Assembly: GCF_900167415.1 (NCBI RefSeq)
Contig: NZ_FUWU01000018.1
Coordinates: 1-56,578 of the forward strand
Length of the DNA: 56,578 nucleotides
Direction: 5' to 3'
Origin: Fibrobacter intestinalis
GTDB taxonomy: Bacteria > Fibrobacterota > Fibrobacteria > Fibrobacterales > Fibrobacteraceae
Shown here: one piece after another, positions 15,932 through 19,187 of the stretch
Numbering within the stretch: position 1 is the first letter of the stretch
How the letters are laid out: every line of letters begins with the position of its first letter
Program-made: the position numbers and the translations under genes
The notes under the pieces: generated by a model
Told to the model about the DNA's origin: nothing
Seen by the model: only the letters and a program-made list of their open reading frames with translations
Database searches by the model: none

Positions 15932-15958
15932 TTGCCAAACCACTTTTACTTTTATAAT
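15932..15958 (+). promoter_or_regulatory. Promoter of the trp operon
   Basis: TTGCCA (15932-15937), a 15-bp spacer and TATAAT (15953-15958). A start site about seven bases after the -10 would fall at or one or two bases before the trpL ATG at 15967. The spacer is shorter than the usual 17 bp. Confidence 0.55.
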
Positions 15959-15966
15959 TTCACGGT

Positions 15967-16032
15967 ATGATTCGCTTCACGTTATCCAACCGTTGGTGGT
16001 GGCGCACTTCGATATCGGAGTACGCGTGTTAA
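15967..16032 (+). CDS. trpL: trp operon leader peptide (21 residues, three tandem Trp)
   Basis: A short ORF encodes MIRFTLSNRWWWRTSISEYAC. Codons 10-12 are TGG TGG TGG, the hallmark of a ribosome-mediated tryptophan attenuator. There is no Shine-Dalgarno, and the promoter -10 lies only eight bases upstream, so translation may be leaderless. It ends 123 bp before trpE. When charged tRNA-Trp is scarce the ribosome would stall on the three Trp codons and leave the antiterminator segment (16014-16020) free. When tryptophan is plentiful it would move on and cover that segment. Too short for ordinary gene calling, but well supported by its place and by the matching RNA hairpins. Confidence 0.88.
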   Translation: MIRFTLSNRWWWRTSISEYAC

Positions 16033-16095
16033 GCGACGAATTTTAATATTCTATTGATGCGTCAATGGCTCCGATTCTACATCGGGGCCTTTTTT
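16014..16095 (+). promoter_or_regulatory. Tryptophan attenuator: antiterminator and terminator hairpins
   Basis: Segment 3, CTCCGAT (16069-16075), can pair in two exclusive ways. It pairs with ATCGGAG at 16014-16020 (seven perfect base pairs), which overlaps the 3' end of the trpL codons and forms the antiterminator, supported by an inner helix GACG/CGTC (16035-16038 with 16060-16063). Or, as part of GGCTCCGAT (16067-16075), it pairs with ATCGGGGCC (16081-16089; nine base pairs with one G-T) around the loop TCTAC, followed by six T residues at 16090-16095, which makes an intrinsic terminator. The distance of segment 2 from the TGG codons fits exposure under stalling. Confidence 0.85.
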
Positions 16096-16155
16096 ATTTC
16101 CCCCAAACCCATTCCCCCTCCCACCCTTCAAAAAAAACAACAAAAGGACAATACG

Positions 16156-17556
16156 ATGAACAAAAGAACCGACAACTTATACCTCTCTCTAGAAGGAGAC
16201 CGCTACACTCCCTTTTCTCTCGCCAAAAAATTGGGTGCCAAAGCGATTCTCGAATCCGCTTCTTTTTCCCAAGGATCGGCCCGTTATTCCATCCTGATGC
16301 TCGAAGAAGCTTTCCACGTCATTGAAGACGAGCAAGGCGTCGCGATTGTAAGCGAAGGACAGCGCAAGCCCTGCGACAGCCGAAACATTTTGGAAGCCTT
16401 GGAAAAAATCGCCGCCGAAAACGAAAAGCCTCCCCAAATTCCGCTCCCGGCTGCGGGAATCGGATTCCTCTCTTACGAATTTTGCGCACGCTGCGACACC
16501 ATCCATTTGGCAAAGCAAAAAGACGGGTTGCAAATTCCCGAATCCGAATTTGTCGTCGGGCACATCTACATCGTCTTTGACCATTTTACAGATACGCTCC
16601 ACTTATTCGGATTAAACTACGACGAACATGAAATCGATTTGTCCGAAGCCTTTGCCCGCATTCAAAAGAAACTTTCCAATCTGGATTTTTCCTATCTGGA
16701 AGCCTCGACGGAAAAATATCCCTACAGGATTATCAGCGACCTGCAAAAAAGCCACGACGAATACGTCCACTGCGTGAAAGAGCTGAAAAAGCGCATCGTT
16801 GCCGGGGATATTATTCAAGCGGTTCCCTCTCGCCGCCTGCAAATCGAATCCCAAATGCCCGCGCTGGAAACCTACCGGAGAATCCGTTCATTGAATCCGT
16901 CGCCCTATCTGCTCTACATCGACTTTGGCGATTATCAGCTCATCGGTTCATCGCCCGAAAGCCTGGTACGCTCCCATGGAGGCAAATCTTCCATCCGTCC
17001 CATCGCAGGGACCTGCCGCCGGGGAAAAAACGAAGCCGAGGACGAACAGCTCAAGGAAAAACTGGCGAACGACCCGAAAGAACGGGCAGAGCATCTGATG
17101 CTCGTCGATTTGGCCCGAAACGACTTAGGGCGAGTGAGCAAGCCGGGAAGCGTCCATTTGACACGGAACATGGAATGCGAACTGTTCAGCCATGTCATCC
17201 ATATCGTTTCCGAAGTGGAAGGAGAAAATCGCAGCGACATCAAGCCGATTCAAGTTTTGCAATCCGTATTTCCGGCGGGGACCGTCAGCGGCGCACCCAA
17301 AATCAGCGCCATTGAAATCGTTTCTTCGCTGGAATCCGAAAAGCGCAACTTTTACGCAGGCGCCGTTGGCTACCTGGAAGCCAATGGAGATCTGGATTTT
17401 TGCATTGGAATCCGCTGTACCTTGAAAAAGGGGAACATCTACACGCTGCAAGCGGGTTCGGGAATCGTCTATGCCTCGGATCCGGAACGCGAATGGGAAG
17501 AAACCAATGAAAAATTGGGAGCCCTCCTCCAAGTTCTAGAGACTAAAGAAAAATAA
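16156..17556 (+). CDS. trpE: Anthranilate synthase component I
   Basis: Converts chorismate to anthranilate together with the glutaminase encoded next door. The 466-residue protein has a chorismate-binding core with IGSSPESLVR near residue 265, PIAGTCRRG near 285, the DLARNDLGRV motif near 320, PAGTVSGAPKISA near 375 and GIVYASDPEREWEET near the C-terminus. The N-terminus LYLSLEGDRYTPFSL corresponds to the region that binds tryptophan for feedback inhibition in TrpE. The start is ATG at 16156, after AAAAGGA; the reading frame extends back into the attenuator but has no start there that suits. It is controlled by the trpL attenuator and separated from trpGD by 29 bp. Confidence 0.96.
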   Translation: MNKRTDNLYLSLEGDRYTPFSLAKKLGAKAILESASFSQGSARYSILMLEEAFHVIEDEQGVAIVSEGQRKPCDSRNILEALEKIAAENEKPPQIPLPAAGIGFLSYEFCARCDTIHLAKQKDGLQIPESEFVVGHIYIVFDHFTDTLHLFGLNYDEHEIDLSEAFARIQKKLSNLDFSYLEASTEKYPYRIISDLQKSHDEYVHCVKELKKRIVAGDIIQAVPSRRLQIESQMPALETYRRIRSLNPSPYLLYIDFGDYQLIGSSPESLVRSHGGKSSIRPIAGTCRRGKNEAEDEQLKEKLANDPKERAEHLMLVDLARNDLGRVSKPGSVHLTRNMECELFSHVIHIVSEVEGENRSDIKPIQVLQSVFPAGTVSGAPKISAIEIVSSLESEKRNFYAGAVGYLEANGDLDFCIGIRCTLKKGNIYTLQAGSGIVYASDPEREWEETNEKLGALLQVLETKEK

Positions 17557-17585: not shown

Positions 17586-19187
17586 ATGATTGTCATCATC
17601 GATAACTACGACTCTTTCACATACAACATCTACCAGTCCATTTCGCGCATCACACCGGAAGCAGTCTGCGTTATGCGCTCCAAGGAATGCACCCTGGAAG
17701 ACATCGAAAAGCAAAACCCATCCCACCTGATTCTTTCGCCCGGACCGGGACGCCCCGAAAACGCGGGAATCACCGAAGACGCCATCCGCCATTTTGCGGG
17801 GAAAATCCCCATTTTAGGAGTCTGCCTCGGGCATCAGGCCATTTGCCACGCCTTCGGAGCAAAAATCGTCTCCGCCAAATTCATCAAGCACGGCATCGCC
17901 GAAGAAATGAACTTGGACGGGCGCGGGCTTTTCCGCCATATCGGCAAGCGCGGAACGTTTATGCGCTACCACAGCCTTGTCGTCGAAGAAGAATCCCTCC
18001 CGTCGGAATTTGAAATCACCGCCCGGGCCGAAGACGGCGACATCATGGGAGTCCGCCATAAAACCCTCGACATCGAAGGCGTTCAATTCCACCCGGAGTC
18101 CATTGCCGCCAAAGAAGGCGACGCTCTTTTCCGTTCCTTTCTCCATTACCGCCGGGACGCTCTTCCCGTTTCACAATTCTTGAGCAAATTGATTTCCAAG
18201 GAAAATTTGACCTGCGAAGAGGCGGAACTTTTTATGGAAAACCTGACAGAGGGAATGCTCGACGAAAGACAGACCGCGGCCATTTTAACGGCAATGGCCG
18301 CAAAAAATCCCGCAGCCTCGGAAATCGCCGGTTGCGCAAAAGTGCTCAACAAAAAGAAAAAGCCCTTTCCCCACGAAAAGAACGCCCCTGTCGCCGAAGT
18401 AGTCGGAACCGGCGGCGATGGCAAGGGGAGCTTCAACATCAGTTCCTTCTCCGCCCTTATCTGCGCGTCCTGCGGTTGCCCTGTCGCCAAACACGGCAAT
18501 CGGGCGGTTTCCAGCAAATCGGGAGCCGCGGACTTTTTCGAAAGCCTTGGGTTCCATCTCGCCCTGCAACCGGAACAGGCCGCCAAAGTCTTGCAAAAAA
18601 CAAACTTCGTATTCCTCTTTGCTCAGGTTTACCATAACGCGATGCGCTTCGCCGCTCCAGTTCGAAAATCCCTGGGAATCAAGACCATCATGAACCTCAT
18701 CGGGCCTTTGACGAATCCCGCCGAAGCCCAATACCTGCTGCTGGGCGCCTACAGCAAAGAATTGCTGAAGCCGATGGCTGAAGCCGCTAAAATGCTCGGA
18801 GCAAAACACGTTCTGGCGGTTTGCAGCGCCGACGGTTTTGATGAAATCTCCCCCAATGTTCCCACATTCGCCTATGAAATCGATGAAGCGAACCACGCCT
18901 TGGAATACACAATAGATCCGCAAAAAATGGGAATTCCAACGACCAGCGACAACGAACTTCGCGGCGGCACGGGTGAAGAAAATGCAAAAATCGCTCTAGA
19001 GCTGGCAAGCGGCAAAGGAAATCCCACCATCCGGAATGCCGTCGCTTTGAATGCGGGCGCAACCCTTTACGTCGCGCGGCGGGCGGCGAATCTCCGGGAA
19101 GGATTCCAAATGGCGCTCAACGCCATCGACTCCGGTGCGGTCGCCCAAAAAATCGACGAAGTCCGTTTAGCAACCCTCGCTTCGTAA
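17586..19187 (+). CDS. trpGD: Anthranilate synthase glutaminase / anthranilate phosphoribosyltransferase fusion
   Basis: A bifunctional 533-residue protein. Residues 1-190 are the class I glutamine amidotransferase TrpG, with Cys80 in GVCLGHQ and the His169/Glu171 dyad in QFHPES. Residues ~197-533 are TrpD, with the PRPP-binding motif GTGGDGKGSFNIS at about 274-286, KHGNRAVSSKSGAAD, and NLIGPLTNP near 375. Fusion of TrpG and TrpD is known in E. coli and other bacteria. The operon here contains only trpE and trpGD; the later trp genes must lie elsewhere. A terminator follows 20 bp after the stop. Confidence 0.95.
   Translation: MIVIIDNYDSFTYNIYQSISRITPEAVCVMRSKECTLEDIEKQNPSHLILSPGPGRPENAGITEDAIRHFAGKIPILGVCLGHQAICHAFGAKIVSAKFIKHGIAEEMNLDGRGLFRHIGKRGTFMRYHSLVVEEESLPSEFEITARAEDGDIMGVRHKTLDIEGVQFHPESIAAKEGDALFRSFLHYRRDALPVSQFLSKLISKENLTCEEAELFMENLTEGMLDERQTAAILTAMAAKNPAASEIAGCAKVLNKKKKPFPHEKNAPVAEVVGTGGDGKGSFNISSFSALICASCGCPVAKHGNRAVSSKSGAADFFESLGFHLALQPEQAAKVLQKTNFVFLFAQVYHNAMRFAAPVRKSLGIKTIMNLIGPLTNPAEAQYLLLGAYSKELLKPMAEAAKMLGAKHVLAVCSADGFDEISPNVPTFAYEIDEANHALEYTIDPQKMGIPTTSDNELRGGTGEENAKIALELASGKGNPTIRNAVALNAGATLYVARRAANLREGFQMALNAIDSGAVAQKIDEVRLATLAS

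Follow-up and report, generated by a model that had tools for sequence, protein, structure and literature searches.

A predicted ribosome-mediated trp attenuator with a probably leaderless leader peptide, repeated before several trp genes in Fibrobacterota

Does the short reading frame with three tandem tryptophan codons that precedes trpE in Fibrobacter intestinalis control the genes behind it and, if so, by what device? The window, which is the whole stretch of DNA that was analysed (56,578 nt of contig NZ_FUWU01000018.1), had been described in an earlier note as containing a ribosome-mediated trp attenuator, and this reading is supported by the sequence of the leader, by its conservation and by its competing stems. 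We consider it very likely that trpE-trpGD is governed by such an attenuator and that the same device precedes other trp genes; its transcript probably starts at or near the trpL ATG. This view draws on the anatomy of the leader, its conservation and covariation among relatives, its copies and the spacing between promoter and ATG, all of them read from sequence. Two hallmarks of the functional class are present: the trp gene is preceded by a short ORF with tandem Trp codons, and an antiterminator and an intrinsic terminator exclude each other.

Letter by letter, the trpL frame runs from the ATG at 15967 to the TAA at 16030-16032, with the three tandem TGG codons of the earlier note between them (table 1). 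That note also had ATCGGAG (16014-16020) and the 3′ arm of the terminator compete for CTCCGAT (16069-16075), and all of these positions are exact, as are the six T residues that close the second pairing. Segment 1, the leaderless start, the copy before trpBA and the stop codon beyond segment 2 were absent from that description. The terminator stem has 9 bp, and the terminated product is predicted to be about 130 nt long. The minimum-energy fold of the leader combines the 1:2 and 3:4 helices (z = −2.1; 5 of 200 shuffles equally stable). The alternative 2:3 pairing of the window, which 15 of 1000 shuffles (1.5%) reach, is moderately beyond chance and taken alone is modest evidence; it is the conservation that convinces. 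The last TGG lies 4 nt from the start of segment 1 and 12 nt from the start of segment 2. As far as geometry goes, this placement would suit a stalled ribosome that covers segment 1 and leaves segment 2 free, in line with what had been claimed of the spacing. An IS200/IS605 family transposase gene (NF033573; 19496-19831, minus strand) lies just 3′ of trpGD, at the end of the operon.

Table 1. Coordinates of the trpL leader and of the genes behind it, numbered in the window
Feature	Position	Strand	Remarks
-35 box TTGCCA of the predicted trpL promoter	15932..15937	+	best sigma70-like site; pattern match G000:C30:15932-15969
-10 box TAATTT, overlapping TATAAT (15953-15958)	15955..15960	+	ends 6 nt 5′ of the trpL ATG
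trpL leader peptide ORF, MIRFTLSNRWWWRTSISEYAC and stop	15967..16032	+	without SD-like motif; probably leaderless
(TGG)3, three tandem Trp codons	15994..16002	+	proposed stall site; WW or WWW in all relatives analysed
Segment 1, ACTTCG	16006..16011	+	pairs with CGGAGT (16016-16021)
Segment 2, ATCGGAGT	16014..16021	+	pairs with segment 1, or with segment 3 as antiterminator; 2:3 pairs counted in relatives
Segment 3, GGCTCCGAT	16067..16075	+	forms the antiterminator with segment 2 or the terminator with segment 4
Segment 4, ATCGGGGCC	16081..16089	+	3′ arm of the intrinsic terminator
T6 run closing the terminator	16090..16095	+	read from the sequence
SD-like AAAAGGA of trpE	16142..16148	+	contrast to trpL
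trpE, anthranilate synthase component I	16156..17556	+	TIGR00564, 5.4e-143; best match, under its curated cut-off
trpGD fusion, anthranilate synthase II / anthranilate phosphoribosyltransferase	17586..19187	+	NF011201, 5.5e-215; over cut-off

In the proposed mechanism RNA polymerase would start at the trpL ATG, or 1-2 bases from it, and ribosomes would load onto the bare 5′ end of the transcript. When charged tRNA-Trp is scarce, a ribosome would stall on the UGG run and cover segment 1, segments 2 and 3 could then pair, and transcription would proceed into trpE. When tryptophan is ample, the ribosome would reach the UAA at 16030 and occupy segment 2, so that the 3:4 terminator would form; a leader that is not translated would adopt the default 1:2 and 3:4 fold, and transcription would stop. 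This genome has a second such device ahead of trpBA, and relatives have it at trpCF and at a trpB-like gene, so that the supply of tryptophan would govern a pathway divided among several transcription units.

The relatives on which this reading depends were expected to keep the TGG run and the alternative pairing. When 61 genomes were searched for TrpE, 23 Fibrobacterota loci proved to code for the same type as the window (identity of at least 60%; 61% or more observed), and all 23 keep both: a leader ORF with WW or WWW is followed immediately by a hairpin and by a terminator, and the 3′ arm of the hairpin can pair with the 5′ arm of the terminator. The competing stems and the W run are kept, but many relatives have only two W, and the large genus g2, which is the weakest case, has an A.C mismatch in its 2:3 stem, which about 7-27% of shuffles reach, as well as a weak U tract in some terminators. 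A W leader attenuator is also found in two genomes of the same family with a very different TrpE (G011 and G015; about 37% identity). The leader is present in a genome of another family (G054), where the antiterminator consists of 11 continuous pairs, matched by no shuffle. No such W leader was seen in genus g6 or at the same-class loci examined. Measured from the last TGG, segment 2 of the relatives lies about 9-19 nt further 3′, and most leaders have their stop codon at +9 or +12, ahead of segment 2; in the trpE leader of the window's genus it falls at +27, and the ORF crosses segment 2. From this geometry, a ribosome terminating on segment 2 should favour the terminator when tryptophan is ample.

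An alignment of the leaders for covariation, as suggested in the earlier note, bears out the antiterminator helix in part. The register of the 2:3 helix differs between genera, and its pairs were therefore counted on subsets of leaders. Across 12 trpE leaders 95.8% of the cells are paired, against 13-60% in slid controls. One position varies between U-A, U-G and C-G, and another changes from G-C to A-U. When trpE, trpB and trpC leaders are taken together (21 sequences), 93.3% are paired, a value as high being found in 0 of 500 shuffles, and five double-change cells compare with 1.3 expected. Compensatory changes are thus present, but in a shuffle control neither the number of pairs with a double change nor that of pair types was significant, for the 12 or for the 21 leaders, and for this reason the covariation of the 2:3 helix is regarded as supportive rather than overwhelming. 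RNAalifold retained the terminator alone (7 bp) on the mixed alignment, because the 1:2 and 2:3 registers shift between genera.

The start of the transcript was approached through the promoters of 73 leaders, many of which are near-identical, so that they do not represent 73 independent cases. Their best sigma70-like promoters belong to the TTGCCA/TTGACA type, almost always with a 17-nt spacer and TAnnnT. In 66 of the 73 the -10 box ends 6-7 nt before the leader ATG, in four 8-9 nt before it, and the remaining three have a second in-frame ATG 7 nt from the box; in shuffled upstream regions a spacing of 5-8 nt occurs in 6%. An SD-like motif upstream of the leader ATG was found in none of the 73 leaders, in contrast to the structural genes trpE and leuA, which have one. 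Since transcription usually begins 5-7 nt past the -10 box, the transcript is predicted to start at or next to the leader ATG. In S. lividans the first transcribed base lies on average 6.3 nt after the box (PMC8079986). Given the spacing in 66 of the leaders and the lack of SD-like motifs in all 73, translation of the trpL peptide probably begins at a leaderless 5′ end.

In its 3.29 Mb, the genome of the window has three matches to the strict pattern TTGCCA-N17-TAnnnT-N6,7-ATG, at the trpE leader, the trpBA leader and a leader at G000:C33:6957; with TGGTGG required after the promoter and ATG there are exactly two (trpE and trpBA), and none in a reversed control. The third occurrence (G000:C33:6957-6994, minus strand; L274) precedes a 20-residue leucine-rich leader, MQNCKSNRLQLSSLLLGRSN, with a terminator-like hairpin and then leuA (NF042434) behind it, and equivalent leucine leaders stand 5′ of leuA in G003 and G027. 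This leader (L274; also L271 and L280), with the same promoter-ATG spacing, is a probable leu attenuator. Scanning the same genome with TTGACA in place of TTGCCA revealed no additional leader peptides and instead several small toxin-antitoxin-like genes (L294, L297 and L300 on G000:C65; L283 and L287 on G000:C14; BrnT/DUF4258/HicB-like by eye), whose TTGACA-type promoters end 6-7 nt 5′ of the ATG; this suggests that modules of this kind are expressed without a leader here.

A covariance model (R1) that spans the leader between its TGG and T runs was run on 168 Fibrobacterota genomes and matched 98 of them at E <= 0.01 and 91 below 1e-3, many with several matches. The strong copies examined lie 5′ of Trp genes only, namely trpE, trpBA, trpC(F) and a trpB-like gene. 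In the window's genome, where trpBA and trpCF are found elsewhere than trpE-trpGD, the second match (G000:C68:3321-3412; leader MQNTRNTNCWWRRA) lies immediately 5′ of trpB-trpA. Equivalent leaders in other genomes precede trpBA, trpC(F) (for example MQIKVASTAKEFFANRWWWGSIG) and the trpB-like gene (MKFVASINFWWWQAL; NF009057/TIGR01415), and one genome (G148) has all four. Weak matches (E about 0.001-0.006) in G039, G040, G064, G073, G009, G012, G020 and G023 contained no trp leader on inspection. The trpCF of the window's genome (L226, G000:C33), which adjoins an rpoZ-like gene, is not preceded by a W leader; this part of the tryptophan pathway seems to escape attenuation there. Two genomes (L207 in G008 and L208 in G022) have a W-leader attenuator before the trpB-like gene and no detected trpE, and their tryptophan may perhaps come from scavenged indole.

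The genes are joined to different degrees. In G012 trpE, trpGD and trpC are clustered behind a single leader, with trpB next, and in G009 trpE, trpGD, trpC and trpB share one contig. The trpE and trpB leaders of G021 are 90% identical over 164 nt, by which this pair is judged to be a recent copy; pairwise leader identities are inflated by free gaps, and only this value was used. A fragmented assembly, some contigs of which are perhaps foreign (G017), was not relied on. The simplest reading is that the leaders would have been copied as the trp operon broke up.

The history of the leader can also be set beside that of trpE. The nearest TrpE outside Fibrobacterota are those of Treponema and other Spirochaetes (59-65% identical); 80 TrpE loci were returned, five of the Fibrobacter type and 75 with Spirochaete names. 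No short ORF with WW was found within 500 nt upstream of trpE at 74 of these 75 loci (five with only 190-351 nt), and the remaining one (L072) has a WW ORF unlike trpL; model R1 gave noise-level matches only in 15 genomes with Spirochaete TrpE loci. In the TrpE tree (L055-L130 against L001-L023), Fibrobacteraceae group with gut Treponema, and a long, fully supported branch divides them from other Fibrobacterota TrpE. Since the Spirochaete loci are without the leader, and G011 and G015, with the other TrpE type, retain it, the attenuator, as judged from these sequences, tracks the bacterial lineage and not the trpE allele. A transfer of trpE between Fibrobacteraceae and gut Treponema, in either direction, is likely. 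The attenuator may have been kept in place while trpE was replaced, or it may have had two origins.

Could the same sequence be explained in another way? The leader might act mainly in trans through a released small RNA or peptide, as rnTrpL/peTrpL does in Sinorhizobium, with attenuation secondary. In S. meliloti the rnTrpL transcript begins with its ATG, as is predicted here, and it has trans functions (PMC7298713), and the terminated product of about 130 nt could be such an RNA. However, different genera share the pairing logic but little of the peptide outside the W run, and the copies sit immediately 5′ of Trp genes, which makes this explanation quite unlikely. That the leader RNA is read not by the ribosome but by some other protein or a ligand (riboswitch, T-box or TRAP-like), the W-rich ORF being incidental, is very improbable: ORFs with an ATG, a WW or WWW run and a stop persist in different genera and before four types of target gene, the stop lies at a nearly fixed distance, and Rfam at gathering threshold returned tRNAs only from the window, with no T-box or riboswitch. 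The existence of an alternative terminator is the sole point in its favour. A plain constitutive terminator behind a W-rich ORF that arose by chance is scarcely credible, because it is contradicted by the conservation and covariation of the leader and by its repeated presence at different trp operons, even though the 2:3 pairing at this single locus could arise by chance about as often as the shuffles indicate.

The preferred reading, a ribosome-mediated attenuator, has the support of comparison and adds Fibrobacterota to the phyla with classical trp attenuation, in the form of a putative regulon of up to four separate units. On a broader proposal, that leaderless leader peptides are a general attenuation platform in this phylum (trp, leu and possibly more), with a cassette copied for each trp fragment and kept through a cross-phylum exchange of trpE, our judgement is evenly balanced. 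The many natural pairs can be used to study the copying of attenuators during the break-up of operons and to ask whether attenuators outlast gene replacement. The fixed spacing from -10 box to ATG offers a cheap genome-wide rule for leader peptides in Fibrobacterota, which has already found the leucine leader, and the leader would be a clean system for the coupling of leaderless initiation to transcription inside about 130 nt.

What is already known and what appears new can be separated by comparison with described systems. No relevant report on attenuation or the trp operon in Fibrobacter or Fibrobacterota was found in the open-access literature. The earlier remark that such trp attenuators are reported less often than TRAP or T-box control once Proteobacteria are set aside holds in part: according to a 2010 survey, leader-peptide systems had been known from Proteobacteria and Actinobacteria only, until it added a hisS case from Firmicutes (PMC2965389), but actinobacterial trp attenuators are well documented (PMC1262725). 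The classical mechanism, the leaderless trpL (Sinorhizobium) and the use of two attenuators for a split trp pathway (C. diphtheriae) are all known; the host phylum appears unreported for trp attenuation, and the leaderless, multi-copy arrangement appears to be the interesting part.

The trpL of E. coli (Rfam RF00513, Trp_leader) shares with the window the tandem UGG codons, segments 1-4 and the U run. Its peptide ends in WWRTS, with the stop 9 nt past the last Trp codon; the window peptide likewise reads WWWRTS, and most relatives share the stop at +9. The window scores 19.2 bits against RF00513, under the gathering score of 41, and none of 16 related loci reaches the gathering score of any Rfam family. 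In contrast to E. coli, the leader described here is predicted to be leaderless, its peptide continues through segment 2 (stop at +27), and there are several copies per genome. In the trpLE(G) of the alphaproteobacterium S. meliloti, too, anthranilate synthase is preceded by a leader peptide that contains Trp codons, and the RNA begins with the trpL ATG (PMC7298713), as is predicted here, whereas in Fibrobacterota the device is repeated before trpBA, trpCF and the trpB-like gene. The actinobacterial attenuators (Corynebacterium, Streptomyces) have leader peptides with two or three UGG codons, as here, and in C. diphtheriae attenuators were predicted before both trpB1EDGC and trpB2A (PMC1262725); leaderless leader peptides (leuL, metL and thrL) are known from S. 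lividans (PMC8079986). The Fibrobacterota leaders differ from these in phylum, in the conserved pairing core and in number, with up to four copies in one genome.
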